In this document: positions 13,111-36,726 of the stretch, in pieces
Position numbering within the stretch: position 1 is the stretch's first letter
Layout: each line of letters begins with the position of its first letter
From: Leucobacter sp. cx-328
GTDB lineage: Bacteria > Actinomycetota > Actinomycetes > Actinomycetales > Microbacteriaceae
NCBI RefSeq assembly: GCF_014530035.1
Contig: NZ_JACVMX010000001.1
Span: 310,001 to 374,000 of the forward strand
DNA: 64,000 nucleotides
Direction of reading: 5' to 3'
Made by a program: the position numbers and the translations under genes
Notes under the pieces: generated by a model
Databases searched by the model: none
Seen by the model: only the letters and a program-made list of their open reading frames with translations
Told to the model about the DNA's origin: nothing

Positions 13111-14610
13111 TTAAGTGAGCTTGTTGCGACGAATGAACATTGCCGATGCACCCACACCGATCAGACCAATCGCGAGCATGAGAGCGCCCGCTGCCGAGAT
13201 TCCACCGGTCGTGGCGAGAGGGGGAGTTGTCGAGTTCTTTGAGCAATCGATCTGTTTGAGATCAACCGTGTAGGTTGCCGTGCCATCGTCATTCATGGTC
13301 CAGCCCTCTGCGGCCTTCAGTCGGTATCCGTCTTGAGCGGAAGCCGTGACAGTTACAGTGCTGCCCGCTTTCACCTCACCCTTGCGGGTGTACGAGATAC
13401 CCTCGGTCTCAGCAACCGTAACCGTGGGATCAGTCAGATCACCAGGAACCTCGCACACGGCGTCAGTCACGGCAGGAGCAACCGGAGCAACCTCGACAGG
13501 AGGGGTCACGTCACAAGGAACGTCTTTCAGCTCGACCGTGTAGGTTGCAATCTTGCTATCGTCACTGAGAGCCCACCCATCAGTAGCAGCCAGCATGTAG
13601 CCTTGCTCAGCAGTAGCGGTAACGGTGAGGGTGCTGCCTGCCTTGATGTCGCCCTCAACATCGTAGTTCACGCCCTCAGTCTCAGCGACCGTAATCGTGG
13701 GATCAGTCAGATCACCAGGAACCTCGCACACGGCGTCAGTCACGGCAGGAGCAACCGGAGCAACCTCGACAGGAGGGGTCACGTCACAAGGAACGTCTTT
13801 CAGCTCGACCGTGTAGGTTGCAATCTTGTTATCGTCACTGAGAGCCCACCCATCAGTAGCAGCCAGCATGTAGCCTTTGTTAGCGTAGTCGTCGTCCAGC
13901 GCCGCAATGACGACAACGGTCTCGCCCACAGCGACAGTTCCGTCAAGGGTATAGGTGATGCCGGCGGTGTCTGCCAGCGTCACCGAAGGATCGGTCACGT
14001 CTCCGCCGGGAACGGTGCACACGGCCTGCTCTACCATCGGAGCTACGGGAGCGAGGTCGCAGGCTTCAGCGGGAGTTTCGAACCAGGTGAAGAATGAGAA
14101 GTCTCCGTCGTTCTTCCAGTTATCGTGGCTGTACTCGGGATTCGTATCTTGATACTCTCTTTCCCAGTTCGCGCCGAGGTCGCCGTCTGTCCAGGGGCGG
14201 AGTTCGCCTCTGCTGATCCAATCGAGCACCGCAAAGTGAGCGCCATCGTCCAGAATGCGGTAACTGTCAATTTGGTAGATGCCGCCACACTCGGCCTGAT
14301 CATAGAAGTTAGGAATGGTGTTGGGAGCCATGCCATCGGTGATCTGAACGTAGTCGACTAGCGTCTGCGATTGGCCATTGGGAAACGGGTTCCAGGGTGC
14401 ACTTCCGCCTTCAGGTAGCTTCCATACGAAGGTGATGTCGTACGGCTCGGTGAACTCGTCTTCGACTGCCGTTGCCGCTGTGGAACCAGCGAAACCCATA
14501 CCAAGAGCTACCAAAAACGCCAGTACAATCGCCAGAACTCTTCGCACCCAGTAGGGACCGGTTCTGGTTCTGAGGTGTTGAATGTGGTTGGCGGGTCTAC
14601 TGAGATTCAT
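13111..14610 (-). CDS. LPXTG-like cell-wall surface protein with three tandem domains
   Basis: 499 residues from the ATG at 14610, which has GGAAG eight bases upstream; other in-frame ATGs at 14616 and 14703 are less well placed. A signal peptide (VRRVLAIVLAFLVALGMGFAGSTAATAV) precedes a unique domain of about 150 residues with Cys and Trp, then three tandem modules of about 91 residues that begin VAPVAPxVxxAVCxVPG. The C terminus is a sortase signal: LATTGG, a hydrophobic helix and RRNKLT. The two downstream modules are almost identical in DNA. The protein is predicted to be anchored to peptidoglycan. No sortase gene is visible in the window. Confidence 0.85.
   Translation of the reverse strand: MNLSRPANHIQHLRTRTGPYWVRRVLAIVLAFLVALGMGFAGSTAATAVEDEFTEPYDITFVWKLPEGGSAPWNPFPNGQSQTLVDYVQITDGMAPNTIPNFYDQAECGGIYQIDSYRILDDGAHFAVLDWISRGELRPWTDGDLGANWEREYQDTNPEYSHDNWKNDGDFSFFTWFETPAEACDLAPVAPMVEQAVCTVPGGDVTDPSVTLADTAGITYTLDGTVAVGETVVVIAALDDDYANKGYMLAATDGWALSDDNKIATYTVELKDVPCDVTPPVEVAPVAPAVTDAVCEVPGDLTDPTITVAETEGVNYDVEGDIKAGSTLTVTATAEQGYMLAATDGWALSDDSKIATYTVELKDVPCDVTPPVEVAPVAPAVTDAVCEVPGDLTDPTVTVAETEGISYTRKGEVKAGSTVTVTASAQDGYRLKAAEGWTMNDDGTATYTVDLKQIDCSKNSTTPPLATTGGISAAGALMLAIGLIGVGASAMFIRRNKLT
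13424..13828 (-). repeat. near-identical direct repeat inside the surface-protein gene
   Basis: Bases 13424-13555 and 13697-13828 are identical as far as I can align them by eye, with an offset of 273 bases (91 codons). After one mismatch the match goes on for about 45 more bases. The third module (13970 region) has diverged. Such a repeat can change copy number by recombination. Confidence 0.8.
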
Positions 14611-14685
14611 GGTCATTTCTTCCGTTAGTGCGTAGTCGGGCAGGAAACTTTCAAAATAAGAAAATGTCTTAACCCGCAAGTGGTT

Positions 14686-14729
14686 GGCGGGCTTCGTCCT
14701 CATCGGGGATTGAAAGGACGAAGCCCGCC
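14686..14729 (-). terminator. hairpin between the two surface-protein genes
   Basis: Perfect 15-base arms at 14686-14700 and 14715-14729 with a 14-base loop. The stem sequence is close to that of the terminator at 13032-13076. There is only a weak T-rich stretch after it on the minus strand. It may terminate the giant adhesin transcript or lie in the leader of the smaller gene. Confidence 0.65.
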
Positions 14730-14865: not shown

Positions 14866-17800
14866 TTAGGCGTTTCCGCCTTCAGTTCCAGCTACGACGC
14901 GGTTGCGTCGTCGGCTGAGCAGGAGAGCCCCGCCACCCAGACCGAGGATCAGTGCGAGGGCGATTGCCCCACCCGCGAGCGTCCCACCGGTAACGGGGAG
15001 CGACGGGGGCACTTCATGCTCGGTCTCTGCCGGAGGCGGAGTGATCGGCGGCAGCCCTGGAGGTGTAGCGTTTCCAACCACGAGGTTGTAGAGCTTTACA
15101 TCCTTAGCATTCTCGTTCACCTTCACCGAATAGTTGAGCTCTACTCGTTCACCAATCTCGAGAGTCCCCGACCACTTCAGGGTGGTGCCCACGAGAACCG
15201 GTGCGGTCGCGCTGGTTTCGGTGCCGTCTGCGGCGATGATTGTCGCAGACGGAGTACCCGACAGTGCACTGTGGTTCAGCACCTTCGACAGGTCGTCGGT
15301 GATGTTCACCGGATCGAGTTTGGTCGCACCAGTGTTCGTGCCGGTCACGGTGTAGGTGACGACCGAGCCTGGCTTGACCTTGCTCCCCGAAGCCGGGTCG
15401 CTGGTCTTGTCGATGGTGAACCCAGGGATCGGGTGCTCGGTTTCTACCGGGGGCGGAGTGATCGGCGGTTTGCCCGGAGGCGTTGCATCAGATTCGGCGT
15501 GGTTATTGAGCGTCTTGCCCTCGAACCCGGCCTTGACCTTGACGGTGTAGACCACCTGCACCTGCTCGCCCTTTTCGAGCTTGCCGCTCCAAGCGAGCGT
15601 CGTACCGTCGATGCTCGGAGCCGATGTCTCGGTTCCGTCAATCGTGGCAGTTGGCTGGCCCGTGAGCTCTGCGAACTCGAGCACCTGCGAGAGGTCATCC
15701 GTGATGTTCACCGGATCGAGCACCGTCTCACCGGAGTTGGTGCCGGTCAGCGTGTAGGTGATCTCGTCACCGGCCTGAACGGCAGTGCCGCTCACCGGGT
15801 CGGCGGTCTTCATGAACGTGTACCCGGGGGTCGGGTGCCACGTCTCAACCTCAGGCGGCGTGATCGGAGGCAGACCCGGGGGCGTCGCTTCAGACTCAGC
15901 GTGGTTGTTCACGATCACGCCGACAGCGTCATCGTTCAGGGTCACCGTGTAGGTGATCTTCACCGACTGGCCTTCCTTCAACGAGCCCGTCCACTTCAGA
16001 TCCGTGCCGTCAACGGAGGGCTGAGGTACAGAATCCTCTCCTTCAATCGTGGCCACGGGATCGATCGTGATGTTCGCGTGGTTCAGTACCTTCGAAAGAT
16101 CATCGGTAATCATCACTGGATCGAGGACGGTCTTGCCCGTGTTCGAACCGGTCAGCGTGTAGGTAATCGTCTCACCTGGAACAACCGTTGTACCTGACTC
16201 AGGATCCGAGGACTTGGTGAACTCGTAATCCGGAGTCGGGTGCTCAGTCTCGCCCGGGGGCGGGGTGATCGGCGGCTTGCCCGGAGGCGTTGCTTCAGAT
16301 TCCGCATGGTTGTTGATCAGAACACCGTTCGCGTCGTCGTTCAGCGTCACCGTGTAGGTGATGGTGACCGACTGGCCGACCTCCAACGAGCCAGTCCACG
16401 TGAGCGCTGTGCCATCGACGACCGGAGCCGGAACACTATCTTCACCGTCGATCGTCGCTACGGGATCGATCGTCAGCTCAGCGTTGTTCAGCACATTCGA
16501 CAGGTCGTCGGTGATGAGAACCGGGTCGAGCGCTGTCGCGCCAGTGTTCTCACCCGTCAGTGTGTAGGTCACTGTGCTGCCGGGTGCGACCGCAGTAACG
16601 CTCGCGGGGTCGGAGCTCTTGGCGAACTCGTAGCCCGGAATCGGGTGCTCGGTCTCCACTGGAGGCGGAGTGATCGGCGGCAGCCCCGGAGGCGTCGCCT
16701 CGGACTCAGCGTGGTTGTTGAGGATCTTGCCCTCATGCCCCTCGCCAACGGTGACCGTGTACGTCACGGTGACTGTCTCGCCAGGCTTCAGCGTGCCATT
16801 CCAGCTCAGCGCATTCCCGTCACGCTCCGCAGCGGGCACATTGTCCGCACCTTCAATGACAGCCACCGGCTCCGACTTGATCGTCGAGAACTCGAGCACC
16901 TTTGTCAGGTCATCAGTGATCTCAACTTCAAGATCGGTCTTACCAGTGTTCTCACCCGTGATCGTGTAAGTGATGTCGTCGCCAGCCACAACTGTGCTAC
17001 CTGACACGGGATCCGAGGTCTTATCGAACTCGTAACCCGGAGTCGGGTGTTCAGTCTCGCCCGGGGGCGGGGTGATCGGCGGCTCGCCCGGAGGCGTGGC
17101 AGTCGACTCAGCGTGGTTGTTCACCAGTACGCCAGCAGCATCATCGTTCAGAGTGACCGAGTAGGTCACTCTGACTGACTGGCCGGGCTGCAGACTCTGC
17201 AATAGCGAGAGCCAGGTCAGCGTCGTCCCGTTGACCGACGGCTGCGATGCGGCGTCCACTCCGTCGATCTGTGCAACTGCGTCCCCGTTGTAGGTAGCGT
17301 TGTTCAGCACGTTCGACAGATCATCGGTAATCACCACCGGTGACAGCGTGGTCTCACCCGAGTTGGTGCCGGTCAGCGTGTACGTAATGGTGTCGCCAGG
17401 GTTCACCGCTGTACCCGACTCAGGGTCAGAGGTCTTAGTGAACTCGTATCCTGGAACTGGCTTCGTCTTCAGCGCCATATCGAGCGTGAAGTTGGTGAAA
17501 TCATCCGTGGTACCCGGGGTCACCGTCATACCACCAGTGTTGTCGTCCGTGGGCTCGTCACCGGTGATCGTCGAACCGTTCACCGTGGCGGACAGCGTGA
17601 TCAGGCCAGTTTTCACCGAGCCGTCCGATTGCTGCGCACCGTTGTGGTCGGTACCCTCATTCGCATCGTTGTTCGGGTCAGCCTCGTAACCCTTGTCCTG
17701 AGCGATGTACCCGGCGAGCGGGCCGGCCGGTGTCGTTTCGTCACCGGCAGCGAACTCAGAGGCCGGGATCTCAGCGTAGTACTTGCCCTCGGGCAGGTCA

Positions 17801-20800
17801 TTGATCACCCAGCGACCGTCGGCGTTGGTGGTGGTTTCACCCACCTTGTCACCGGCCTCGTTGTAAACGTTGACCTTCACACCTTCGGGCGCGACAGTGT
17901 CGGTGCCTGCGGTGTACTTGCCGTCGTCGTCGGTGTCGAGCCAGATCAGGTCGCCCAGTGAGAACCCGACCACGCGTACGAGCACCTGGTTTGAGGTCAG
18001 CAGCTGGAAGACGCCGTCCTTGGAGGCCGTCTCACTGAACGCCGTGAAGCGGTTCGCGTAGAGATCACCCGCGGCGTTATCTGCCTGGTTGGTCTTGAAA
18101 GTGATCTTCAAGCCTGACGAAGTGCCCTCGTTCACGTTGCCCAGTCGATTTGCCGCGACGAACTTGAAGGCCGTCGCGTCAGCCGTGAAGGTCGTCGACC
18201 AGATCGACGGATCGATGTCGTCGTTCAGGTTCTGCGGAACATTGGCGGGATCGATCGTCGTGTAGTAGAACGTACCGTCGACGTCGGCTGTCGGAGCAGC
18301 ATCGAGCTTGCTCGTTCCCTCGTAATCCGAAGCCGGGTTACGGTTGACGTTCGCAGAGTTCACCTTGTCACCGTTATACGGCAGCACATCGATGACCGTC
18401 GGTGCCGCATAGCGGAGCGCCTCCGCGAAGTTCTTCACCTGCAGCGTGTAGACCTGATCCTTATCTTGCAGATCAAGCGGGGCGTCGACCGTCTTCTTCA
18501 GCTGCAGGCCACCCGGCTGGGTCACCGTCACGGTGTGGTCGTCATTGTGGCTCTGCTGCACCGCGATGATGCCATCAGCCTTGATGTTGACCTTGTTCAC
18601 CAGACTCGAGTTATTCGCCTGGAACGGGTCGACGTGGGTAGCCACCTTGAACGAACCGATCGGCTCGTTCGGTGTGAGCGTACCGAGCTGCCACACCAGG
18701 GTGGTGGTTCCGTTCGCGTTGACCGTGACGCTCGAAGGCATAGTTGTACCGAGTTCTTCGGTGCCCGCTGCATCGTATTCCACCCCCTTGGGGAGGGTGT
18801 CGGTGACAGTCACATTGTTCACGGGCGCCGGATCATCAGAGACTGCGGAGAGTGAAGGATCGATCTGCCAGATGACAGGCGTGCCGGCCTTCGCGCTGCC
18901 GGTTACACCAATGTCGCTCGCGCCGGTCGCGTCTTCACCGTTCACCGTACCTTCGATGGTGTACTTCGTGATCGCCATCGTTGCACGGGTCAGCGTCCAG
19001 CGGTCACCGAAGGCATGCTTGACATCGGAGCCATAGGTGCCGTCGTTAGTGGTGCCGGAACCTGGAACGTACGGGTGATTCTTCACCACCCAGTCGCCTG
19101 CGCCGTAGGTCGGGCTCTTGATGTTGCCGAAGTTGGCAGCAATCGTACCGGCGGGAATCTCTTCACCGTCGTTCGGGCCACCGTAATAGGTGTTGCGCTG
19201 CTCGAGCACTGTCAACATCTGCAGACGGTAACCCGCCGGAGCCTTGTAGCCATCCTTCGTCTTCATCCAGACAGCGTTGACCTCGTCAATGCCGCCGGGG
19301 ACGTCGTTCGGGTTGTCGTACCAGGTGATGCTGGCGTCTTCGGTGATCGAGTTCGTGCCGCTAGCTGCCGTGGCCTGATTAGTCCAGTCGCCTTCATAGC
19401 GCGCTTGATCCGAATCGAAGTTGCCGTTATTCGCGGTGTCGCGAGCGACATCGTCGGTCAGGTTAACGTGAGCGTACTTGAACGTGAAGTTGTCCTGATA
19501 GGCCAGTGCCACGTTGCGGTTGTCACCGTTGACCGTGTTCGTGCCAACCGAATAGAGATCATCGGGGATGACCGGCCCACTCGTGTCGTTCGGATCGTTC
19601 GGCTTATCAGCGTTAAACGGCGCAAGCTTCATCATCGAGTTATCCCAGACATCGATCATCTCGACGTCAGGAGTGTCGAAGTTGAACAGTGCCTGCACCT
19701 TAGAGGTGAACGCCTGCCCTGGCTGCACCTGGCCCGCACCGGCCTGGCCTGCCGACTCGGGCATGTTTGCCTCGCGCATGTTCCAGCTCATGCGCTGGTC
19801 AACGAGGGTCTTGCCGCCATTGCCGGGAGAGATCTCGATGTTTGCGGGACCGGATACGTTGTTGCTTCGGCTGGTGCCGTCGGGCATCGTGTCACAGTTA
19901 CTGCTGCGATCATCACTGGGGCCTGCCTCGCAGTAGCCAGGCTCATCAGCCGAGCCGTAGTTGCTCGCACCAGACTTGCCCTTGGGGTCGAAGTCGCCAA
20001 CGCGGTTCCAGATGTTTACCTTGCCGGTGTAGTCACCCATGACGTCGTTCATTGCGTCGACCTCGTCGAACGGAATGAAGACGCGCACAGTGTAAGCCGC
20101 AACATAGAACTTGTCGGCTGCAAGTGCGGTGCCATTCTGAGACTTTGTCGGGTAGCTGGAGCCCGATGTATCGATGCCGTCAAGTGTGAATTTGTAGTTG
20201 CCGGTGTCGGCATCGCCTACGCGCTCATACGAGCACGTGCCGGAATCCACGACAGAGTTTTCTGCAGTTGTCACACCGCCGCCAAAGATCGGGGTGCCGA
20301 CCTTGCCATAAACAGTCGAGCCACCAGGGCCAACCGAGGTGTTCTGGGCGTTCAAGCCGTCAGGGCCACAGTGCATCATGTACCACTTGAACGGTGTCTT
20401 CAGTGTGTTGCTGCCGTCCGCGGTATTCGCCCAAAGTGCGTCTTCGAACGTTACCGGCTGCTCAAACGCTTCATTGCCGACCGTACGGTCAGTCGTGATG
20501 TTGATCGAGTACGAGACCTCGTAGCCCCTCATTTCAGTCGGGGTGCCATTGACGTCGACGGTCTTCGTGCCGAGCTGCCACACCCAGGGGCGCTGCTTCT
20601 CAATATCGTACCGCGGGGCAGCGGTGATCTCGAAGGGGCCGAACTCGTGCGGTCCGTCGGGGCGTGCGGTGGTGACACCGTTCTCATCAGCGCCATAGGT
20701 GCGCACGTTGGTGGTGAATGTCGCGCCGTTTTCTGAACTGCCCGAGACGAATACTTGCGTATCAAGCTGGTGGTTCGCCTTGTCAACGCTGGTCGCACCG

Positions 20801-21723
20801 AGGTTGCACTTCAGCACCACAGAGGTGGTGCCGCTCGGAGGATCCTGCCGAGGCTGCAGGACATCTCCCGAGGGAAGCGCTAGAATCTCGCTGCCGGTGC
20901 CACACGAGTTTGGCATCTGACCGAATGTGGCGACCGCACCTGGCTCCAGCACCAGCTCCTGTTCAAACCACGCGTCGAATGAAGATCCGAGATCCTGTTC
21001 GGCGCTCGCGGTGATTGACCAGGAGTGGTTGATCACGTCGGAGGTACGCACACGGTTATTGCCGTCACCCGCATCTTGACCCGGCTCGCTATCGTCAGCA
21101 TCAAACGGAGCGGTGCCCGTGTAAATGGTGTAGCCCCCGAACCCATCCGGGTCGTTCATCGCGATCACATCAGTCGACCAGGTTGGGTATACGAGCGCGT
21201 TGAGCTCAACGTCGTTTGCGTCAGCTGGAATCGTCGCGATTGACTTCTGTGTTGCATTCGCGTCGCTGTTGTCAACGACTCTCTCAAAGTCATTGACCCC
21301 AGCGGTTTTCGCTGTAGGCGTGAGGTAGTTGTCGCCGCCCAGTCCATCGGCATTGATCATCACCGTGTAGGGGCCGGCAATTCCCGAGACGTCTGCCGTC
21401 TTGAATGACCAATTGCCGTCCGCGTCGGTGGTGGTCTCCGCCTTCTGGGTGGGATCTGCGCCAATGAGCGTCACCTTCACGCCCGCGAGGGGGGTGTCGT
21501 TCTCGCCCGTCGGCTGGCTCGTATTAACCGCACCGTTATTGTTCGAGTCAACGTGGATCACGCCGTGGGCAAGATCGCCGGGTGCAGCGATTGCTGCTGA
21601 GGGCATACCAACACCGAACGCCACCAGCACGGCGGTCGCTAGCGCAAGAGTCTTCCCGCCCTGCGCCTTGAGATTTCGCCCGATCTTGGAACGTCTCTTA
21701 TTTAACAACTGTTCCTGTTTCAT
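14866..21723 (-). CDS. giant LPXTG-anchored adhesin with SdrD-type and DUF11-like repeats
   Basis: 2285 residues. The signal peptide has a long basic n-region (KRRSKIGRNLKAQGGKT) and a core ending AIAAPGD. An SdrD/CnaB-type domain follows (about 55-125), then a region of about 1100 residues with adhesin-like beta character, and a second SdrD/CnaB domain (GDLIWLDTDDDGKY, about 1255-1325). Six tandem DUF11-like modules of about 135 residues (about 1421-2238) each begin with a K(T/S)(S/A)DP motif and end TPPG-x-PPITPP. The C terminus is LPVTGG, a hydrophobic helix and SRRRNR, a sortase signal. It is predicted to form a long wall-anchored stalk. It is transcribed away from a LuxR-type regulator across a 302-base region. 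Confidence 0.92.
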   Translation of the reverse strand: MKQEQLLNKRRSKIGRNLKAQGGKTLALATAVLVAFGVGMPSAAIAAPGDLAHGVIHVDSNNNGAVNTSQPTGENDTPLAGVKVTLIGADPTQKAETTTDADGNWSFKTADVSGIAGPYTVMINADGLGGDNYLTPTAKTAGVNDFERVVDNSDANATQKSIATIPADANDVELNALVYPTWSTDVIAMNDPDGFGGYTIYTGTAPFDADDSEPGQDAGDGNNRVRTSDVINHSWSITASAEQDLGSSFDAWFEQELVLEPGAVATFGQMPNSCGTGSEILALPSGDVLQPRQDPPSGTTSVVLKCNLGATSVDKANHQLDTQVFVSGSSENGATFTTNVRTYGADENGVTTARPDGPHEFGPFEITAAPRYDIEKQRPWVWQLGTKTVDVNGTPTEMRGYEVSYSINITTDRTVGNEAFEQPVTFEDALWANTADGSNTLKTPFKWYMMHCGPDGLNAQNTSVGPGGSTVYGKVGTPIFGGGVTTAENSVVDSGTCSYERVGDADTGNYKFTLDGIDTSGSSYPTKSQNGTALAADKFYVAAYTVRVFIPFDEVDAMNDVMGDYTGKVNIWNRVGDFDPKGKSGASNYGSADEPGYCEAGPSDDRSSNCDTMPDGTSRSNNVSGPANIEISPGNGGKTLVDQRMSWNMREANMPESAGQAGAGQVQPGQAFTSKVQALFNFDTPDVEMIDVWDNSMMKLAPFNADKPNDPNDTSGPVIPDDLYSVGTNTVNGDNRNVALAYQDNFTFKYAHVNLTDDVARDTANNGNFDSDQARYEGDWTNQATAASGTNSITEDASITWYDNPNDVPGGIDEVNAVWMKTKDGYKAPAGYRLQMLTVLEQRNTYYGGPNDGEEIPAGTIAANFGNIKSPTYGAGDWVVKNHPYVPGSGTTNDGTYGSDVKHAFGDRWTLTRATMAITKYTIEGTVNGEDATGASDIGVTGSAKAGTPVIWQIDPSLSAVSDDPAPVNNVTVTDTLPKGVEYDAAGTEELGTTMPSSVTVNANGTTTLVWQLGTLTPNEPIGSFKVATHVDPFQANNSSLVNKVNIKADGIIAVQQSHNDDHTVTVTQPGGLQLKKTVDAPLDLQDKDQVYTLQVKNFAEALRYAAPTVIDVLPYNGDKVNSANVNRNPASDYEGTSKLDAAPTADVDGTFYYTTIDPANVPQNLNDDIDPSIWSTTFTADATAFKFVAANRLGNVNEGTSSGLKITFKTNQADNAAGDLYANRFTAFSETASKDGVFQLLTSNQVLVRVVGFSLGDLIWLDTDDDGKYTAGTDTVAPEGVKVNVYNEAGDKVGETTTNADGRWVINDLPEGKYYAEIPASEFAAGDETTPAGPLAGYIAQDKGYEADPNNDANEGTDHNGAQQSDGSVKTGLITLSATVNGSTITGDEPTDDNTGGMTVTPGTTDDFTNFTLDMALKTKPVPGYEFTKTSDPESGTAVNPGDTITYTLTGTNSGETTLSPVVITDDLSNVLNNATYNGDAVAQIDGVDAASQPSVNGTTLTWLSLLQSLQPGQSVRVTYSVTLNDDAAGVLVNNHAESTATPPGEPPITPPPGETEHPTPGYEFDKTSDPVSGSTVVAGDDITYTITGENTGKTDLEVEITDDLTKVLEFSTIKSEPVAVIEGADNVPAAERDGNALSWNGTLKPGETVTVTYTVTVGEGHEGKILNNHAESEATPPGLPPITPPPVETEHPIPGYEFAKSSDPASVTAVAPGSTVTYTLTGENTGATALDPVLITDDLSNVLNNAELTIDPVATIDGEDSVPAPVVDGTALTWTGSLEVGQSVTITYTVTLNDDANGVLINNHAESEATPPGKPPITPPPGETEHPTPDYEFTKSSDPESGTTVVPGETITYTLTGSNTGKTVLDPVMITDDLSKVLNHANITIDPVATIEGEDSVPQPSVDGTDLKWTGSLKEGQSVKITYTVTLNDDAVGVIVNNHAESEATPPGLPPITPPEVETWHPTPGYTFMKTADPVSGTAVQAGDEITYTLTGTNSGETVLDPVNITDDLSQVLEFAELTGQPTATIDGTETSAPSIDGTTLAWSGKLEKGEQVQVVYTVKVKAGFEGKTLNNHAESDATPPGKPPITPPPVETEHPIPGFTIDKTSDPASGSKVKPGSVVTYTVTGTNTGATKLDPVNITDDLSKVLNHSALSGTPSATIIAADGTETSATAPVLVGTTLKWSGTLEIGERVELNYSVKVNENAKDVKLYNLVVGNATPPGLPPITPPPAETEHEVPPSLPVTGGTLAGGAIALALILGLGGGALLLSRRRNRVVAGTEGGNA
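15010..17460 (-). repeat. six tandem modules of about 405 bp in the giant adhesin
   Basis: Module starts, marked by the motif read as (P)G(Y/F)xF/I-x-K(T/S)(S/A)DP, lie near 17447, 17037, 16632, 16227, 15822 and 15420. Units are about 135 codons long and similar but not identical in DNA. They are coding repeats of a DUF11-like domain. Confidence 0.85.
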
Positions 21724-22025
21724 CTACCTTTGCCCCCATCGAATCCCGGAGAATCGTCGAGTGTGTTCTTTACCGCCCCGCCGCAGAACGCGCACGAAGC
21801 AGAGCGAAGTCCATTTCGATTGAACTCTGTAGCGCTCGTGGAATCTGCCCCATTGGGGGAGATTCCCCCAGGGGAGTCACCCACCAGGCGTAAAATCCCC
21901 CAGACGTGTCACCCATTCCTTCGGCTTGCTGATCTGGAAGCGTGGATAATCTACTTATTCAAACAACTCGAATTATCGGGGGGGGGGGTAATATAGACCC
22001 TTTTTCTCCACTGGAGATTGAAGAC
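21724..22025. promoter_or_regulatory. divergent control region with poly-G tract and GGGGGA/TCCCCC palindrome
   Basis: This 302-base gap separates the giant adhesin (minus) from the LuxR-type regulator (plus). It holds a 7+7 palindrome, TGGGGGA-GAT-TCCCCCA, at 21854-21870, and another TCCCCCA at 21896-21902, about three helical turns away. GTCACCCA occurs at about 21875 and 21908. A run of 11 G (21978-21988) is directly followed by TAATAT (21989-21994), a good -10 box for the regulator, so the run lies in the -35/-10 spacer. GGAG sits at 22012-22015, a good distance from the ATG at 22026. Binding of the regulator to the palindrome is inference. Confidence 0.6.
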
Positions 22026-24464
22026 ATGACTGTTCAACACTCGCTCCTGTCAGCACCTGAGAACGTGGCTGCTTCATGGCGGGCACACATCCCAGGTCTT
22101 GATGTGTCTCCTCATATTTCGCGGCCTCGTCTTGTCCAGCAAATACTCGCTTCCACAGGGCGGTGGGTTTCCGTGCTCGGGCTGCCTGGTTCGGGAAGAT
22201 CCACTGTTCTGTTTCAGCTGGCCACCCATTTGGAACACATCGGTTCCCCATACGTGGCTTCTTTCTCCGCTGCGCAGTCGCTAGACCTCGTCGGTGTGCT
22301 TGCAGCCGGTGTGCCTGAGGGAAGCGCCGTGTTGGTCGATGATTTTGACCTCGCTACTGATCCTGACCGTTTACGTGATGCACTTTGCGGCTTCCTTGCT
22401 GTCGACCCAAGCGGGCGTGTGATCACCACATCTATTGACGATCTTTCATGCGACAGGCTCGAGAGACACTCAGAAACTCTCAAGCTCGATTTCGTGGCGG
22501 GGGCACACCTGCTCTTCACCCATGAAGAAATCAGATCTCTGTTCCTGGCGACTTGTGCGGAGCACAATATCGTCTTGGTTGATGAGCAAAGCATCGAAGC
22601 TTCTGTCCGACGAATCGAAGAGTCCTCGATGAGGTCACCCTTTTCTGTGCGTATTGCGCTCCAGCAGGAGATCCGGTCACTGCCTGACCCGCCATCCGTC
22701 GTGAGGGGGAGCGCTTTAGCTGCGGCCGCGTCAGCAGTGCAGTCCAAATTGCTCGAGACGATACCGCAACGACGGCTTCGAGACGGCTTGCTCGGCAAGC
22801 TGGCCATCCTGGAACTCATGCCGCGTTTCACCCAACGGCACATCGGCAAACTATTCCCAGCTATCTCTGCTGCAGAGGGTCATGAAATTCTTGGCCTGCC
22901 GCACCTTGATAGCGAACTTTCTATAAACGAGATCGATGTTGCGTGGGTTGCAGCCTACTGGCCAGCACTCATTGAGAAGCGACGCCTGCATCGGGAGCAG
23001 CGCATCAAGCTAGCCGAACAGCTCCTCGCCCTGGATGAACCCGGGGCGGCGTTCGATCAGTTTGTTTTGGCGCAGGATTATCTACGCGCAGAGATGCTTC
23101 TCCGCTCTCAGTTCTTGACAGTTTTTGAAACCACTGCACCTGAGACGGTTGCAGCGCTTGCCAGCACTGCACGTAAGCACTACAAGAGCTACCCACTTCT
23201 GTACACGTTCCACGCGCTCGTGATGCCATACACAGTTCAAGCGCAACTCTCGGAGTGTGCGCAAATGTTGCGTGGCTTTGTGAGCCAACTGAACGAAACA
23301 GACAGGCACCTCACCAACGCCGTGCGCGCTGTTGTGCACGATCGTCTGCAAGACACTCAGGCGGCGAGAGAAACAGCCTGGGGCGTCATTGAAGCTGTGC
23401 AGGCGCAGATCGATGAAGAAGACTCGTCTGAGATCAACTCATCCCCGGCAGAAGCGAGTGTGATTGCAATTCTCGCGCTACTGTCTTGTGGCGGTTTCCC
23501 GCGCAGAGAGCTACTTCTCCCGAAGAGCGAGAGCGGTGACTACCTTGAGCACCGCAGGTCGCTAGCATTCTCTGCAATCAACGCAGCCCTCTACGAACAG
23601 TTCCCCAACGAAGAATCTGCCGGAGCATTGAGTGATGCCTATCGTTCGCTCGTGTACCCTCCCTCACGCTGCCTCACCGACATCGCGGTCTTTCAAGAGT
23701 ACGACGAGCAGTTCAGACGTATCCTTGCATCTTGGAAGGACGCTGAAGAAACAGATGTGAGGGTCATCGAGCGCCCAGAAGACATCTTCGCGTTAAGCGA
23801 CCTTGAAGATTCATCGCCCTCAATCCTCAGAGATGTCGCGATGCTCTACAAGAGACTCACCAGCACCACGGCAGCACCACCTGCCTCGAAAGAAGCGTTC
23901 CAGACTATTCCGTTACCGTTTAGGCACGTGGTTGAGTGGCAAGCAGCTCTCTATCAAGGCGACACCCTCGGAGCAATCACAGCTATCGACCAAATCGATG
24001 ATGGCTGGGGTGAACGACTGATCGCCATACGCGTAGTACATAGATGCTCAGCAATGTTGTACCAAGGTAACACCGAGGGTGTCCAGCTCATGCTAGATCG
24101 CTCAGACGCGGTATCAGAAGCGCTCCTCGCACAAACCATCACCCTCATGCCCGCAGCAAGCGGACAAGCACTAGCCGCCCTATCCCCTCGCTTGGCTCGT
24201 ATCTTCAACGCAGCCTCCACAGTCGGGTTGCTTGGTACCGGAGCGTTGCGAGAAAAATCTGTCTATACTCCAAGCCTGTCACCAGCTGAACTCAGAGTAC
24301 TGCGACACCTCGCTGACGGGCTCAACACCGCACAGATTGCAGACCGCCTGCACCTCTCCGCTGAAACAGTGCGAACCCATGTCAAGCGAATGGCTTCGAA
24401 GCTCGGCGTTCGCGGACAGGCAGCAATCTTGCAGCGCGCCAGAAAACTCTCTCTGCTTTCCTGA
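22026..24464 (+). CDS. LuxR-type ATPase regulator (LAL/MalT-like)
   Basis: 812 residues from the ATG at 22026 (GGAG upstream). A GTG at 21942 in the same frame would add 28 residues and put the poly-G tract inside the gene, but it lacks a properly spaced ribosome site. The N-terminal NTPase has Walker A (VLGLPGSGRST, about residue 50) and Walker B (AVLVDDFDLA, about residue 103). A long helical, TPR-like middle follows. The C-terminal LuxR HTH is SPAELRVLRHLADGLNTAQI and on through LSAETVRTHVKRMASKLGV. LAL regulators usually need ATP and an inducer. It is divergent from the giant adhesin and is its most likely activator (inference). Confidence 0.88.
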   Translation: MTVQHSLLSAPENVAASWRAHIPGLDVSPHISRPRLVQQILASTGRWVSVLGLPGSGRSTVLFQLATHLEHIGSPYVASFSAAQSLDLVGVLAAGVPEGSAVLVDDFDLATDPDRLRDALCGFLAVDPSGRVITTSIDDLSCDRLERHSETLKLDFVAGAHLLFTHEEIRSLFLATCAEHNIVLVDEQSIEASVRRIEESSMRSPFSVRIALQQEIRSLPDPPSVVRGSALAAAASAVQSKLLETIPQRRLRDGLLGKLAILELMPRFTQRHIGKLFPAISAAEGHEILGLPHLDSELSINEIDVAWVAAYWPALIEKRRLHREQRIKLAEQLLALDEPGAAFDQFVLAQDYLRAEMLLRSQFLTVFETTAPETVAALASTARKHYKSYPLLYTFHALVMPYTVQAQLSECAQMLRGFVSQLNETDRHLTNAVRAVVHDRLQDTQAARETAWGVIEAVQAQIDEEDSSEINSSPAEASVIAILALLSCGGFPRRELLLPKSESGDYLEHRRSLAFSAINAALYEQFPNEESAGALSDAYRSLVYPPSRCLTDIAVFQEYDEQFRRILASWKDAEETDVRVIERPEDIFALSDLEDSSPSILRDVAMLYKRLTSTTAAPPASKEAFQTIPLPFRHVVEWQAALYQGDTLGAITAIDQIDDGWGERLIAIRVVHRCSAMLYQGNTEGVQLMLDRSDAVSEALLAQTITLMPAASGQALAALSPRLARIFNAASTVGLLGTGALREKSVYTPSLSPAELRVLRHLADGLNTAQIADRLHLSAETVRTHVKRMASKLGVRGQAAILQRARKLSLLS

Positions 24465-24581
24465 CTTTGAGTCAGCCTCAGGACTCCGCAACCTTCGCCC
24501 GACTTCGCCGTCACATATCTTGCAAACATGGCTGAAGTGCCGCGAGCCGACTCTGATTTGACCGCGTAACGCGGGGCAGTG

Positions 24582-24613
24582 GAGGCCACCTTTCGAGCGT
24601 GAAAGGTGGCCTC
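24582..24613 (+). other. perfect 13-bp inverted repeat directly before the relaxase start
   Basis: Arms at 24582-24594 and 24601-24613 are fully complementary, with a 6-base loop; the relaxase ATG follows two bases later at 24616. The right arm contains AAAGGTGG, the only plausible ribosome site. It may be part of the origin of transfer, which MobF relaxases often have next to their gene, or an RNA hairpin that hides the ribosome site. A smaller palindrome, CCGCGTAACGCGG, lies just upstream (about 24562-24574). Confidence 0.6.
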
Positions 24614-24615
24614 TG

Positions 24616-27600
24616 ATGACGGTTTCGATGCGTCGTATGACGGCGGGTGACGGGTACAAGTACCTCCTGAAGTCGGTCGCCTATGGCGACGGCGATAGAG
24701 CCATGTCGACCCCGTTGACGCGCTATTACAGCGAAGATGGAACCCCGCCTGGCAGGTGGCTCGGTTCGGGTCTGAGCGGCCTCGCGGATGGTCAGATAGT
24801 TGCCGGTGATACGGTGACCGAGGCGCAGCTCCAACTGCTCATCGGGATGGGGCGAGATCCGGTATCTGGTGACGCGCTGGGGCGACCTTATAGCCAGTTC
24901 CAGACGCTCGATGAGCGCGTTGCCGCTCGCATTGCCGCGCTCGATCCTGAACTCACGCCATCGCAGCGGGCCGAAGCGGTCACGGTGATTGAGGCGGAGG
25001 AAGCGGCGAAGAAGAGCCGTAAAGCGGTCGCGGGCTTCGACTTCACGTTCTCGATCCCGAAGTCAGCGTCGGTGTTGTGGGCGGTGGCTGATGGGGGCAC
25101 GCAACAACTCATTTGGGAGGCGCACCATGCCGCGATCAGTGATGTGTTGCAGTTCATGGAGCGCGAGGTCGCTGCAACACGGGGTGGTGCGCGGGGCCCT
25201 GACGGTGCGGTGCTGCAACTCGATGTTGCTGGGGTTGTTGCAGCCGCGTATGACCACTACGACTCCAGGTTGCACGACCCCTACTTGCATACGCATGTGG
25301 TGGTGTCGAACAAGGTGCAGCACGCCCAGACCGGGCGTTGGCTCGCGCTTGACGGGCGACCTCTGCACGCGGCAACGGTCGCGCTGAGCGAGTTGCATGA
25401 GGCGATCTTCGCTGACTCACTCACTCGGCTGTTCGGGGTCTCGTGGGAGTCACGCGAGCAAGCTGCTGGCCGGAATCAGTCGTGGGTGATCAGTGATGTG
25501 CCGGAGGAACTGATCAAAGCGTTCTCGAGGCGCGCACGCGATATTGAAGTCGAGAAAGAACGCCTCATCGTAGAGTTCGTGGCACGTCACGGTCGCAGGC
25601 CGTCGTCGGCTCAGGTCATCAAGCTGTTGCAGGAGGCCACGCTCGCAACACGCCCCGAGAAAGACGTGCGCTCGCTTGATGATCTCACGAGCGAGTGGCG
25701 GGATCGTGCAACAGTGATCCTCGGCGAAGATGCGGCGGCGTGGGCGATCCGTGTTGCGTGGCAACACGACCCCAGAAGCTCAGGTCTACGGTTGTTGCGC
25801 GCCGATGATGTTCCGCTCGACATGATCGCGGCCCTCGGGCAGCAAGTGATTGAGACGGTGGGTGAGAAGCGTTCGACCTGGCGACGCTGGAACCTCATGG
25901 CCGAAGCCGCCCGGCAGTCGATGTGGCTCAGGTTCGCGTCAACCGAGGATCGCGAGGTCATCGTCGGCATGATCGCGGATGCCGCCGAGCACGCATCCCT
26001 GACGCTCACTCCGCCCGAGCTTGCCGTCACTCCCGTCGAGTTTCAGCGCGCTGACGGCTCCACAAGATTCCGGCCGAAGCACTCGACACTGTTCTCATCG
26101 ACGGCGTTGCTTGCGGCGGAGGATCGGCTGACCGCGAGAGCACGGGGCATGGCCGGCCCCAGGCTCGCGCTCGACACGATCGAGCGGTTCGCGAGTGAAC
26201 CCGATGATGAGGGGCGCACGCTCGGCCCCGACCAGCGCGACGCGCTCGCCCGGATCGCGGTCTCAGGCCGCACCGTCGATGTTCTCGTGGGGCCTGCAGG
26301 TACTGGGAAGACTACGACGCTGGGCGCTTTGCGTCGTGCCTGGGAATGGAAGCACGGTGAGGGGTCAGTGGTGGGGCTTGCCCCGTCAGCAGTCGCGGCA
26401 GGCGTGCTCGCTGACGAACTCGGTATCCCGACCGACAACACCGCGAAATGGCGAGAAGTGTTCGAGCGCACCGGGCAGACCTTCACACGCGGTCAGCTGG
26501 TGATTCTTGATGAGGCGTCGCTTGCGGGCACGCACTCGCTCGATCTCATCACCCGTGAGGCTGAGCGGGTCGGAGCGAAAGTGCTGCTCGTTGGAGACCC
26601 GGCACAGTTGCAGTCGGTCGGCGTGGGCGGCGCGTTCTCCCTGATCGTGAACGACCGCGCTGAGGGCACGCCGGAGTTGACGGAGGTGTGGCGGCTGCAA
26701 CACGACTGGGAGAAGCGCGCCTCGCTCGAGTTGCGCCACGGCCGCGCACCAGTGATCGACACCTATATGGAGCACGGCAAGATCCGGGGCGGCACCATTG
26801 ACGAGATGGCCGAGGCCGCGTACCGGGCCTGGTGGGAAGACCGGCAGGCCGGGCGAGGAACGATCCTGATCGCAGAAACCGTCGAGAACGTCACCGAACT
26901 GAACCAGCGGGCACGCCGCGACCTCATCGCCCACGGCTTCGTCGCCGCCGAACGCGAGATCGAACTGGGCGACGGCAGCCGCGTGAGTGTGGGAGACACG
27001 ATCATCACGAGGAAGAACGACCGCCGCCTGCGCTCGGCACATGGATGGGTGCGCAACGGTGAACGTTGGGTGGTGACGAACGTGCGCGATGACGGTTCGG
27101 TCTTCGTGCGGCCACCCACCATGCGGCGCGGGGGCGGGATCTTGTTGCCCGCCGCATACGTTGCCGAGCACGTCGACCTCGGCTACGCGGTGACCGCGCA
27201 CCGTGCCCAGGGCGTTACCGTCGACACCGCACACACGCTCGTCGAAGCCACCACGACCAGGGAAGTGCTCTACGTCTCCATGACGCGCGGCCGCTACTCG
27301 AACCGAGCCTATGTCGCCACCGATCGGCTCGATCCCGCGCACAGCGTGCCGCAGCCCGGCGAGAACCCCGATGTGACCGCCCGCACCGTGCTCCAGGGCG
27401 TGCTTCAGCATGTCGGGGCTGAACTCTCGGCACACGAGACGATTACTGCGGAGCAGGAACGGTGGGGCGGGATCGCGCAGCTTGCCGCCGAATACGAGAC
27501 GATCGCTGTCGCCGCGCAACAGGACAGGTGGGCGCGGTTGCTTGCTGCATCCGGGCTGACCTACGCGCAGGTAGACGAGGCGGTGAGTGCGGAGACGTTC

Positions 27601-28194
27601 GGGGCGCTCGTCGCTGAGCTCCGACGCGCAGAGGCCAGCGGGCATCCGGTCGATACGATCATGCCGAGGCTTGTGTGGGCGCGTGGCTTCGCGGACGCCG
27701 ACGATATAGCCTCCGTGCTGCACTACCGACTCGAACAAGCCGTAACTCGGCTCGGCGTTGGTGGTGCGCTGCCGCGCGCTCGGTTCATCGTAGGACTACT
27801 GCCCGAAGCGGTCGGAGAGATGAGCGCCGATATGCGTGCCGCGCTCGAGGAGCGGCGGGAACTCATCGAAGCGCGCGCCGCCGCGATCCTCGACACCGCC
27901 CTCGAACGCGGCGAGCAGTGGGTGACCGCTGCTGGTGCCCCGCCGAAGAATGAGCAGGATCGGGCGCGCTGGCGATCAGGGCTGATGACCGTCGCCGCAT
28001 ACCGCGACCGGCATGGCATCGACCCCAGGGAGGCGCAGCCGCTTGGAGTCGAGCCGGAGAGTATCGGGCAACGCATCGACTACGAACGCGCTGGGGCGGC
28101 CCTGATTCGTGCCCAGCAGATCGTTCACCTAACTGTCCAGTCTGAAGTGCCGAGGCCGACAGCCGGGCGCGAGCATCGCGGCCCGACGCGATAG
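24616..28194 (+). CDS. MobF-family conjugative relaxase-helicase
   Basis: 1192 residues. The N-terminal TrwC-type relaxase domain (about 1-330) has two adjacent candidate catalytic tyrosines (TRYYSEDG, residues 37-38) and the metal-binding histidines in DPYLHTHVVVSN (about 225). The helicase part has Walker A VGPAGTGKTTTL (about 557), VILDEASLAGT, LLVGDPAQLQSVG, and a C-terminal motif region with YAVTAHRAQGVTVD and LYVSMTRGRYSN, typical of RecD/TraI-like superfamily 1 helicases. The protein nicks element DNA at oriT, stays bound to the 5' end and unwinds the strand for transfer. It is transcribed opposite to the secretion operon. Confidence 0.95.
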   Translation: MTVSMRRMTAGDGYKYLLKSVAYGDGDRAMSTPLTRYYSEDGTPPGRWLGSGLSGLADGQIVAGDTVTEAQLQLLIGMGRDPVSGDALGRPYSQFQTLDERVAARIAALDPELTPSQRAEAVTVIEAEEAAKKSRKAVAGFDFTFSIPKSASVLWAVADGGTQQLIWEAHHAAISDVLQFMEREVAATRGGARGPDGAVLQLDVAGVVAAAYDHYDSRLHDPYLHTHVVVSNKVQHAQTGRWLALDGRPLHAATVALSELHEAIFADSLTRLFGVSWESREQAAGRNQSWVISDVPEELIKAFSRRARDIEVEKERLIVEFVARHGRRPSSAQVIKLLQEATLATRPEKDVRSLDDLTSEWRDRATVILGEDAAAWAIRVAWQHDPRSSGLRLLRADDVPLDMIAALGQQVIETVGEKRSTWRRWNLMAEAARQSMWLRFASTEDREVIVGMIADAAEHASLTLTPPELAVTPVEFQRADGSTRFRPKHSTLFSSTALLAAEDRLTARARGMAGPRLALDTIERFASEPDDEGRTLGPDQRDALARIAVSGRTVDVLVGPAGTGKTTTLGALRRAWEWKHGEGSVVGLAPSAVAAGVLADELGIPTDNTAKWREVFERTGQTFTRGQLVILDEASLAGTHSLDLITREAERVGAKVLLVGDPAQLQSVGVGGAFSLIVNDRAEGTPELTEVWRLQHDWEKRASLELRHGRAPVIDTYMEHGKIRGGTIDEMAEAAYRAWWEDRQAGRGTILIAETVENVTELNQRARRDLIAHGFVAAEREIELGDGSRVSVGDTIITRKNDRRLRSAHGWVRNGERWVVTNVRDDGSVFVRPPTMRRGGGILLPAAYVAEHVDLGYAVTAHRAQGVTVDTAHTLVEATTTREVLYVSMTRGRYSNRAYVATDRLDPAHSVPQPGENPDVTARTVLQGVLQHVGAELSAHETITAEQERWGGIAQLAAEYETIAVAAQQDRWARLLAASGLTYAQVDEAVSAETFGALVAELRRAEASGHPVDTIMPRLVWARGFADADDIASVLHYRLEQAVTRLGVGGALPRARFIVGLLPEAVGEMSADMRAALEERRELIEARAAAILDTALERGEQWVTAAGAPPKNEQDRARWRSGLMTVAAYRDRHGIDPREAQPLGVEPESIGQRIDYERAGAALIRAQQIVHLTVQSEVPRPTAGREHRGPTR

Positions 28195-30572: not shown

Positions 30573-32024
30573 ATGGCAGACAGCACCTACGAGAAACCCT
30601 TTCTCACAGTCGAACAGCAGATCGACCAGATCAAGCAGCGCGGCATGAAAATCGGGAGCCGTGATGACGCGCGGAACGCGCTGCGGCGCATCGGGTACTA
30701 CCGGCTGTCGGGCTACTGGCATCCCGACCGAGTGCCTGCCGGGCCGGGAGAAAAGCGGGCATCCGAGTTCCTTCCGAATACGCGACTCAGCGATGTGCTC
30801 GACCTCTATGCCTTCGACGAGCAACTGCGCGCTGCCCTGCTCGAAGCGATCGCTCAGATCGAGGTCGCATTGCGGTTTGAACTTGGACATCCGCTCGGCA
30901 GGAACGGCCCGTTCGCGCACCTTGACGACTCCCACTTCAACTCCGGATTCACGAAGTTGCGCGATCGGGTGTGCAAGTTGCCCGGCTGTGATGGCGACTG
31001 CCGCTGGGAAGAATCAGACCACCACGAATGGGTCGACCGGCAGCGCCAGACCGAGCAGGTCTCGACTGAGGCGTTCGCGGCGCACTTCCGCGAGAACTAT
31101 GGCGAACCTCTGCCGATCTGGGTGGCAACCGAAACAATGTCATTCGGCAGACTCACCCGGCTGCTCGATGGTCTGGACTCGGCCGAGCGTGAACTCCTCG
31201 CGGCTGAGTGGGATGTGATCGACAGCACCGGGCAGGGTGACCCGTCGGTGCTATCAAACTGGATGGAGCACCTGCGCCAGGTGCGCAACATCTGTGCGCA
31301 CCACGCCCGCATCTGGAACCGCAACATCAACGCGACTATCGCCGTGCCCTCCGGTATGCCGGAACTACAACATCTGCTTCTCGAAGTCCCGCGCGGTGAC
31401 GAGTACACACCCCCGATGGTGCGCCGCATCTACGGCACGTTCGTGATCCTCACCCATCTGCTCGCTGTGATCGAAGCACCCGTCCGCTATCGAGACCGAC
31501 TCCGCACACTACTCACAGGTTTCCTCGCTGCGCGTCCGCAGGCAGAGGCGAACATGGGTTTCCCCGTAGGCTGGCAAGCGCATCGGATCATGGCTGAGGA
31601 TTATCGGCGGGATCAGCAGCGTGCTGCACGGTTGGCGATGCTCAGAGCGATCGAAATGTTCGGTTCGGGTGAGGCAGCTGATGCGTTGAGCGCTGTGCCG
31701 GAAGGGAAACCGCGCAGGTCGAGAGTGAACTACTACCGCAAGAACGGGGCGCTGCTCTCAGTAATGTGGAACGCTCGCCGAGCATACCCCGCGTTCCAGT
31801 TTGATCCAGCGACGGGCGTTGTGCCTGAATTGGTAGTCCTCGCCAACCGGCGTCTGCTCGACGGCGGGAACGTCAATGATGACGGGCATTGGGCGGCGCT
31901 CGAGTGGTGGCTTACCCCGAACACCTCGCTGCCAGATGAAACCAGCCCAGCAGAAGCGATGGGCACTGGCGCTCTCACGCGCGATGCGCTCGACCGGCTC
32001 CTGCCGCCGCGTGACGATGAGTAA
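30573..32024 (+). CDS. Abi_2 (AbiD/AbiF-like) abortive-infection family protein
   Basis: 483 residues. The Abi_2 domain covers about residues 8-300: KPFLTVEQQIDQIKQRGM, ALRRIGYYRLSGYWHP, LDLYAFDEQLRAALLEAIAQIE, PIWVATETMSFGRLTRLL and VRNICAHHARIWNR. The last motif carries the R-x(4-6)-H of HEPN ribonucleases. About 180 residues beyond the usual family length have no recognisable motif. Proteins of this family abort phage infection or act as toxins. It is preceded by a small terminator-ended RNA, so leaky read-through would set its level. Confidence 0.88.
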   Translation: MADSTYEKPFLTVEQQIDQIKQRGMKIGSRDDARNALRRIGYYRLSGYWHPDRVPAGPGEKRASEFLPNTRLSDVLDLYAFDEQLRAALLEAIAQIEVALRFELGHPLGRNGPFAHLDDSHFNSGFTKLRDRVCKLPGCDGDCRWEESDHHEWVDRQRQTEQVSTEAFAAHFRENYGEPLPIWVATETMSFGRLTRLLDGLDSAERELLAAEWDVIDSTGQGDPSVLSNWMEHLRQVRNICAHHARIWNRNINATIAVPSGMPELQHLLLEVPRGDEYTPPMVRRIYGTFVILTHLLAVIEAPVRYRDRLRTLLTGFLAARPQAEANMGFPVGWQAHRIMAEDYRRDQQRAARLAMLRAIEMFGSGEAADALSAVPEGKPRRSRVNYYRKNGALLSVMWNARRAYPAFQFDPATGVVPELVVLANRRLLDGGNVNDDGHWAALEWWLTPNTSLPDETSPAEAMGTGALTRDALDRLLPPRDDE

Positions 32025-32032
32025 TGCGAGCA

Positions 32033-32758
32033 TTACCGAGTGATCCTGTTGGGAGCCTGGGCTGATCGCGGAGACTCCATACCTGCCGTGGCGAGCGTAG
32101 AGCGCAGGGGTTGCACATCGGTTCGGATAGTCGTTGGTCTGTTGAGCGCGGTCGATGAAAGGTCATAGCCGCCCCAGGGCGAGTATCCGGCGACGTGTCG
32201 AGTCGCGTATCGTGCGCGCTCGGTGATGATCGGCGCACCAGATACTTGCATCTCGGCTGGGTAGTGCGCTTCGATCCATTTGCGACCCAACTTGGTCAAG
32301 CCACTGCCATCGCGCACCCGAATCTGCGCGGGCACCACAGGCAGCTCACGCCAGTTCGGGATCGCGTGATTGTGCCACCCCTCGACGCTATCGTCTTCTG
32401 AGTCGCTGACCTGATGCCATCCGCATGGTTCGCAGACCGCGAGATACATGAGGTCGCCCGGCCCCTCGCACTTCGGCTCGGGGCGCAGGTCAGCTGAGAA
32501 CATGACGAGGCGGTGATCGCCGTACTCGGTACCACCATTGAGCCAGCCGTAGCCGGTGTGCCACATATGGCTATGCGGGATCGACCCGAAACGGCCATTG
32601 AGAAGCTGCCATTGCTCAAATGCGGCCTGTAGCTCGCCCGGCGGGTAGTAGTCGGTGGTGAAGTGGAGCGGCGCGCCGTGCCACTCGGGTGGGTTCGCGC
32701 GGAGATCCTCACGCACGAGTTCGTCAAGATCGAACGCAAGCTGGCTATCGTTGTTCAA
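32033..32758 (-). CDS. hypothetical ICE-associated protein
   Basis: 241 residues, soluble. A conserved-looking core contains HGAPLHFTTDYYPPGELQAAF, IPHSHMWH, LVMFSADLRPEPKCEGPGDL, MYLAVCEPCGWHQVSDSE and WHNHAIPNWRELPVVP; the Cys and His could bind a metal. Similar proteins occur on actinobacterial mobile elements (possibly DUF6349; not verified). It follows the DprA-like gene by 28 bases on the same strand and is probably co-transcribed with it. Its last 9 bases before the Abi stop are a convergent junction. Confidence 0.65.
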   Translation of the reverse strand: MNNDSQLAFDLDELVREDLRANPPEWHGAPLHFTTDYYPPGELQAAFEQWQLLNGRFGSIPHSHMWHTGYGWLNGGTEYGDHRLVMFSADLRPEPKCEGPGDLMYLAVCEPCGWHQVSDSEDDSVEGWHNHAIPNWRELPVVPAQIRVRDGSGLTKLGRKWIEAHYPAEMQVSGAPIITERARYATRHVAGYSPWGGYDLSSTALNRPTTIRTDVQPLRSTLATAGMESPRSAQAPNRITR

Positions 32759-32786
32759 CGTCTATTACCACCACTCGGAGCCTGAA

Positions 32787-33785: not shown

Positions 33786-34163
33786 GTCGCCCTCCTGATA
33801 CACGGATAGTGTGTCGGGAAGGTACGACAACGGTGACGAGCAACGGGGCGGCCACTTACTACGCCCGTGGGTATCGCGTGTTGCAACTTCTGAGTGTGTC
33901 TGGGGGCGAGTTGTGGACTGCGGCCGCCGCGAGCCCGAATCTTGTGCTGACGAAGGGGTTAGGTCGTTATCGCCTCGGTATTCTTGTGTCATGTTGTTGA
34001 CTGGTGCCTTCGTTGATTTGGCTGGATATGTGGTCGGACGTGACTCATGCGCTGTCTTCGACGGCCAGAATTCTGATGTCGGTGTTGTGACCATGCGCGG
34101 AAGTATCCAAGCGCACGCCTCGGGCTCCTCTGCGGTGTCACGTCACCAGACGGAGAAATGACT
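33786..34163. other. intergenic region between dprA-like and RloC-like genes
   Basis: No convincing protein gene is seen; open frames here lack ribosome sites or protein-like composition. It must hold the divergent promoters of the two defence-like genes, but I cannot assign -35/-10 boxes with confidence. GGAG at 34152-34155 serves the downstream gene. Confidence 0.5.
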
Positions 34164-36503: not shown

Positions 36504-36692
36504 ACACGGAGAAACCTGCGTCGGCCCAAGCGATGTGGGCCACGGGAAACCCATGCCAATCAACCGTGACGAGTCAGAAATGACCGGGTACACTCGGAAG
36601 TGGCGTAGCGCCAATTCCCTAGATAACACCAGGGAACCGTTGCTATTCGCATGGTCTCGAAACTATTCGTGACCAGGGGTTTTAAGAGACGG

Positions 36693-36721: not shown

Positions 36722-36726
36722 CTGCT

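Follow-up and report, generated by a model that had tools for sequence, protein, structure and literature searches.

In a 64,000-nucleotide stretch of Leucobacter sp. cx-328 DNA (the window), eleven consecutive G residues abut a −10-like TAATAT box upstream of the gene for a LuxR-type regulator, which is divergent from the gene for a large surface adhesin. We propose that this tract forms a spacer-length slippage switch on the regulator of the adhesin, a plausible reading to which we assign about an even chance. Three observations favor a slippage-tuned regulator promoter: the anatomy of the site, the exceptional length of the run, and the fact that this length differs between nearly identical copies of the locus. 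The relevant features, in window coordinates, are:

14866 to 21723, minus strand: surface protein of 2285 residues, divergent from the regulator, with DUF7927, DUF11, SdrD-B and isopeptide fimbrial domains and an LPVTG motif
21855 to 21883 and 21887 to 21915, no strand assigned: two 29-nt direct repeats, 76% identical, 32 bp from start to start, each with the end GTCACCCA
21942 to 22025, plus strand: in-frame extension of the regulator from a GTG, through the tract at 11 G (a rival reading)
21968 to 21973, plus strand: TCGAAT, the best −35-like hexamer (3 of 6 matches), giving a spacer of 15 with 11 G; doubtful
21978 to 21988, plus strand: G tract, with 11 G here, 10 G in Gulosibacter macacae, and 8 G and 6 G around an IS110 element in Ca. 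L. sulfamidivorax
21989 to 21994, plus strand: TAATAT, putative −10-like box of the regulator promoter; TANNNT stands at the same place in the promoters of genome G424
22014 to 22017, plus strand: GGAG ribosome binding site, 8 bases 5′ of the ATG
22026 to 24464, plus strand: regulator of 812 residues with a C-terminal LuxR (GerE) helix-turn-helix and, by eye, a P-loop-like N-terminal region
24616 to 28194, plus strand: MOBF/TrwC relaxase of a mobile element, from domain matches
36688 to 36722, plus strand: tRNA-3′-end-like stretch at the right edge of identity between two Leucobacter copies

A long G tract abuts a candidate −10 box

An earlier, sequence-only reading of this DNA described an 11-G run leading directly into TAATAT, a ribosome binding site and the regulator start, and this layout is confirmed: TAATAT abuts the run with no gap, GGAG follows, and the ATG lies 31 bases past the box. 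That reading also held that the run fills much of a −35/−10 spacer. The junction with TAATAT stands, but a good −35 is absent at spacers 13–19, where no hexamer matches TTGACA at more than three of six positions. The best of them is TCGAAT, at a spacer of 15 (14 in Gulosibacter), and a standard promoter scan over 21600–22100 returned no promoter. If TCGAAT does act as the −35, both known tract lengths would fall short of a spacer of 17, the optimum being reached with 13 G.

In the window, G/C runs of lengths 1 to 6 number 22811, 5677, 1194, 304, 63 and 4, and beyond 6 there is one run of 11. The decay per extra base of about 0.21–0.25 (lengths 2–5) leads by our arithmetic to about 0.003 expected runs of at least 11 per window. 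Elsewhere in the 2.64-Mb genome, one other internal run of at least 9 occurs, a 10-G run on contig C7; the remaining runs of this size sit at contig ends (C11 and C12), where they appear to be artefacts of assembly. Because the window holds no other run above 6 and the genome interior only one other of at least 9, a long G run is exceptional for this genome. The run of eight G is less striking against dinucleotide shuffles (four overlapping matches, all within the 11-G run, versus 1.6 expected, a count matched by 12 of 100 shuffles), and composition alone would permit some long G runs. The C7 run (G000:C7:372823-372832; L037, L085) adjoins a frame with the end GGYWSNGSSTGVLALALSTALSNSNGSVGFRVTR, which we take to resemble variable C-type-lectin-like proteins.

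These observations bear on both sides of an alternative that we regard as a genuine possibility, though short of an even chance, namely that the tract is unstable but functionally neutral. The promoter would then be driven by an activator or lie elsewhere, with little effect from shifting the spacing by one base. The lack of a usable −35 is consistent with neutrality, as is the expectation that any 11-G run slips, and both distant relatives of the regulator (described below) manage without a tract. Neutrality sits less well with the exact abutment on TAATAT, with the near-absence of such run lengths from the rest of the interior of the window’s genome, and with the repetition of the layout before surface genes in G424.

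Start and relatives of the regulator

The longest open reading frame of the regulator begins upstream, at GTG 21942, encodes 840 residues rather than the 812 counted from the ATG at 22026, and crosses the tract in frame. It is conceivable that the switch is translational, with the start at GTG 21942 and a coding tract, so that only some lengths would keep the frame. Besides the frame open at 11 G, a precedent exists in the pili of Bifidobacterium breve, which are controlled by intragenic G tracts according to the portion of PMC9187656 available to us. We consider a translational switch improbable, since the ATG at 22026 has a well-placed GGAG and is usable at any tract length, whereas a GGAAG lies just one base 5′ of the GTG. 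Furthermore, the 10 G of Gulosibacter break the upstream frame, and an insertion sequence cuts the upstream segment away in Ca. L. sulfamidivorax.

The regulator had been described as a large ATPase of the LuxR type. Its C-terminus indeed matches the GerE helix-turn-helix (Pfam, E 2.3e-14), and for the ATPase part, GLPGSGRST and VLVDDFD were recognized by eye in the N-terminal region; Pfam gave no ATPase domain match in the protein, which scores far under NCBI’s MalT cut-off. When the whole regulator was searched against 40 relative genomes, the matches listed extended beyond the C-terminus in its own genome and in genome G007 (E 6e-50), the further ones being confined to the C-terminal 190 residues. 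Among 396 genomes of the order, residues 1–695 had a match at E 1e-10 in the own genome only.

Another genome of the genus, G567, encodes a homolog of the LuxR type (E 7e-11; 24% across 353 aligned positions) upstream of, and on the same strand as, a homologous adhesin of 2412 residues with shared domains (59% over residues 49–2213). G007 has a better LuxR homolog (29% over 619 positions), whose neighbors resemble, by eye, type IV pilus genes. G/C runs of at least 7 are absent from both the 14-kb stretch of G567 and the stretch of G007 that was fetched. The regulator–adhesin pair is thus found once more in the genus, in a genome where no G tract accompanies it, and these two tract-free relatives suggest that the pairing may predate the tract, which would be an addition on this element. 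Upstream of regulator or neighboring genes, three loci share the 6-mers GGGTGA (8 versus 2.1 expected, P 0.0013 uncorrected) and, as the best, GGGGGA (3.9e-6 uncorrected, or about 0.008 once 2080 tests are allowed for), both post hoc and not relied on.

The divergent adhesin and the shared intergenic region

The product of the divergent gene was correctly read as a surface protein of 2285 residues: it ends in LPVTG, a hydrophobic stretch and RRR, and together with the domain matches this identifies a wall-anchored protein. The direct repeats at 21855–21915, between the two genes, are candidate regulator binding sites or a candidate operator, and their 32-bp spacing corresponds to about three helical turns. 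On the other side of the adhesin gene, an InlB-repeat-like frame (13111–14703) contains a stretch of some 205 bases twice, in nearly identical form (window 13400–13877).

Tract length in near-identical copies

A genome scan identified two near-identical loci, in Ca. L. sulfamidivorax GP (L032) and in Gulosibacter macacae (L033). The Gulosibacter alignment spans 16,734 columns, of which 24 are mismatched, and contains 2 gaps (99.8% identical), one gap being a 3-base insertion within the adhesin gene and the other the loss of one G from the tract (10 G). By our arithmetic, the chance of one random indel landing in the 11-base tract of these 16.7 kb is about 0.0007. The variability that the sequence-only reading had expected of the tract is therefore seen among relatives, at 11 G in the window and 10 G in Gulosibacter, although each length comes from one assembly and assembly error or slow drift may account for either. 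Runs of at least 9 G/C stand at four further places in the Gulosibacter assembly; one is 28 G long and lies beside Ns, which indicates that G-run artefacts occur there. Long G runs are less exceptional in Gulosibacter than in the window’s genome.

Identity with Ca. L. sulfamidivorax covers window 1–36722, at 99.9% in each aligned block, and an insertion sequence is the sole large interruption. This 1.5-kb element (L032:6467-7957), whose transposase belongs to the IS110 family (NF033542, E 5.5e-71), splits the tract, with 8 G remaining to its left and 6 G to its right, and parts the −10 from its upstream region. Between relatives, then, the tract differs both by the 10 G of Gulosibacter and by this insertion. 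Comparison of the element with its other copies in that genome (G420; L065–L070) provided five left and five right junctions, all of which abut at least 4 G (4–7 G in the other copies), and this suggests that the element has a G-run target.

Such targeting raises the question of whether the tract is mainly a landing site for a G-run-seeking IS110-family element, with any promoter role secondary. The insertion inside the Ca. L. sulfamidivorax tract and the ten junctions would fit, but some junction Gs may belong to the ends of the element itself, and two of the three copies of the tract carry no insertion. A landing site would also leave the adjacent TAATAT and the difference in length unexplained, and we judge this explanation very unlikely. 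A slippage-prone promoter spacer remains our preferred reading.

L032 and L033 have ten base differences from the window in common, marking them as the closer pair. DNA from 21700–22900 matched 11 of 398 family genomes, nine of them by stretches of fewer than 60 bases, and the full matches were to the own genome and the Gulosibacter contig (G438). DNA from 20000–26000 matched 33 of 54 genomes of the genus; among the matches listed, the tract region was found only in the own genome and the Ca. L. sulfamidivorax copy (G810), G567 matched through the adhesin, and the others through the relaxase. Four of 11 genomes in Gulosibacter’s genus matched, with the module only in the known copy. Since searches of the wider family, genus and order gave no further copy, we count three in total.

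Poly-G spacers in other genomes

The pattern G8-TANNNT occurs at 30 sites in 398 family genomes, versus 12 in the reversed control. Sixteen of the 30 (control 1) lie in a single 1.4-Mb Microbacteriaceae genome, G424, and the remainder (14 versus 11) amounts to hardly any excess in the family. Twelve of the 16 have TTGA seven bases 5′ of the tract (the reversed control of the TTGA pattern gave 4), placing 12 tracts between TTGA(C/T) and TANNNT. At the ten sites that were read (contigs C7, C12, C20, C21, C22, C26 and C28; L139–L147, L158–L163, L178–L184), the tracts have 9, 13 or 14 G and the spacers measure 14, 18 or 19. All five complete downstream frames encode wall-anchor-like ends (three LPLTG, two NTGA) that lead into a hydrophobic stretch and then a basic tail; at the other sites read, three frames run off the contig, one is too short to judge, and one site has no frame before the contig end. 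When three of the products were compared with Pfam, one proved to be a pilin and two had no match at E 1e-5. By their layout, the G424 sites are poly-G spacer promoters, and they belong to the window’s own family. The 10 bases 5′ of the window tract match one of these promoters at 8 of 10 positions, a post hoc comparison equaled in 107 of 20,000 shuffles.

Several G424 tracts precede wall-anchored surface proteins, including tandem pilins, and a phase-variable surface repertoire is probable in that organism. Five genomes of G424’s genus were available for comparison; in two others than G424, tracts of 10 G (L126) and 9 G (L127) precede proteins whose starts resemble signal peptides.

Order-wide, G9-TANNNT occurs at 46 sites in 26 of 396 genomes, versus 18 in the reversed control. 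Thirty of these sites were read, including the window’s own; seven have TTGA at a spacer of 18–20, the TTGA part having no control, and the window’s site is not one of the seven. Judged by eye, the proteins behind six of the seven begin with what resembles a signal peptide. Tracts of 9–12 G between TTGA and TANNNT, with signal-peptide-like proteins, are present in other families of the order (L185, L192, L193, L208, L211, L212).

A probable mobile element around the locus

The relaxase and the tRNA-like edge of identity indicate that the region is probably an integrated conjugative-type element, and the stretch at 36688–36722 is, by eye, a likely attachment site; ARAGORN found no tRNA over the window. 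A plasmid collection gave no match in DNA and protein searches, and the exact downstream motif had 0 occurrences in viral contigs. For strain GP, the accessible part of PMC6868719 assigns conjugative genes to contigs other than the one with the copy.

The proposed switch had also been linked to mating, a link that gained no support. In all seven relaxase neighborhoods fetched from other genomes of the genus, a subset of the many relaxase matches there, both module genes are missing from the roughly 9–13 kb upstream of the relaxase (tblastn, E 1e-6), and the regulator–adhesin module consequently looks like cargo. Relaxase homology begins 105 bp 5′ of the relaxase in the closest genome, G804, and approximately at the relaxase start in most other matches listed; where it begins is not informative on shared transcription. 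Near the right end of the element (window 30573–36503) are genes for Abi_2, DNA-processing-A (DprA-like) and AAA_13 proteins, possibly defence cargo. To the left of the window, about 5.9 kb of the window’s genome (L084:7711-13635) is missing from the Ca. L. sulfamidivorax element copy.

Proposed mechanism and implications

We propose that the tract would act as a slippage-prone spacer of the regulator promoter. Replication errors that add or remove a G would alter both the distance and the helical phase between TAATAT and an upstream RNA polymerase contact, which could be the weak −35 (TCGAAT) or an activator. Cells would then differ from one another in regulator level, and the regulator could in turn switch the divergent adhesin through sites in the common intergenic region. 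In this scheme the tract, its difference in length, the layout of the locus and the one further regulator–adhesin pair are observations, whereas we infer the promoter, the effect of tract length, the direction of control and reversibility.

A bolder version can be offered only tentatively, and we would not give it an even chance. The conjugative element, with its slippage-controlled regulator and giant adhesin, would be a travelling master phase switch that moves a random on/off surface program between Leucobacter and Gulosibacter, as part of an undescribed class of Microbacteriaceae poly-G spacer promoters, a dozen of them in one small genome. Promoter-homopolymer switches are known elsewhere, but it is unusual for one to act on a regulator that a mobile element carries. 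If real, it would mean contingency switching in environmental actinobacteria that is set on a regulator and a mobile element, and a recipient population would acquire a ready-made mix of adhesive and non-adhesive cells. With the G424 set, G-tract promoters of Microbacteriaceae could be examined in one small natural system.

Comparison with known systems

In Neisseria opc and porA, the homopolymer is located at the −35/−10 spacer. The likeness to the present site lies in the promoter homopolymer, whose length in Neisseria sets surface-protein expression; for opc, the available part of PMC3447861 gives 11 C in the parent and 12 C in high expressers. Neisseria, however, switches the surface gene itself, whereas here the candidate is a regulator gene on a mobile element, behind a weak −35.

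As for the statement that no such case is known in this group, we found no report of poly-G promoter switching for Leucobacter or Microbacteriaceae among the open-licence papers listed by our searches, but there are examples in other actinobacteria, namely Cutibacterium acnes, Bifidobacterium and Gardnerella. A link to Tropheryma was not confirmed by literature search. In C. acnes, according to the part of PMC4746626 available, 54 homopolymers are variable (96% G/C), and HPT_37 is inferred to lie between −35 and −10 with a 2-fold expression difference; the authors there favor slow, clade-wise accumulation rather than active modification. C. acnes is likewise an actinobacterium, but the tracts of HPT_37 and HPT_26 are short (5 versus 7 C; PMC4746626).

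B. breve resembles our system as an actinobacterium with G-tract slippage and sortase-dependent surface structures; its demonstrated cases are intragenic frameshift switches, although the authors also mention G tracts inside promoter spacers (PMC9187656, in part). Gardnerella has tracts of at least 8, with about 70% of the G/C ones upstream of open reading frames, and many surface proteins, and transcriptional regulators too, are associated with them; in the available portion of PMC11287997, a promoter-spacer role is not dissected and no tie to a mobile element is made.

The G424 promoters differ from the window site in having a real TTGA −35, with 5 bases from the −35 hexamer to the tract, and in controlling surface genes directly, whereas the window site has no TTGA. 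They are like it in belonging to the same family, in the G tract that abuts TANNNT and, in the best case, in the agreement of 8 of the 10 bases before the tract.
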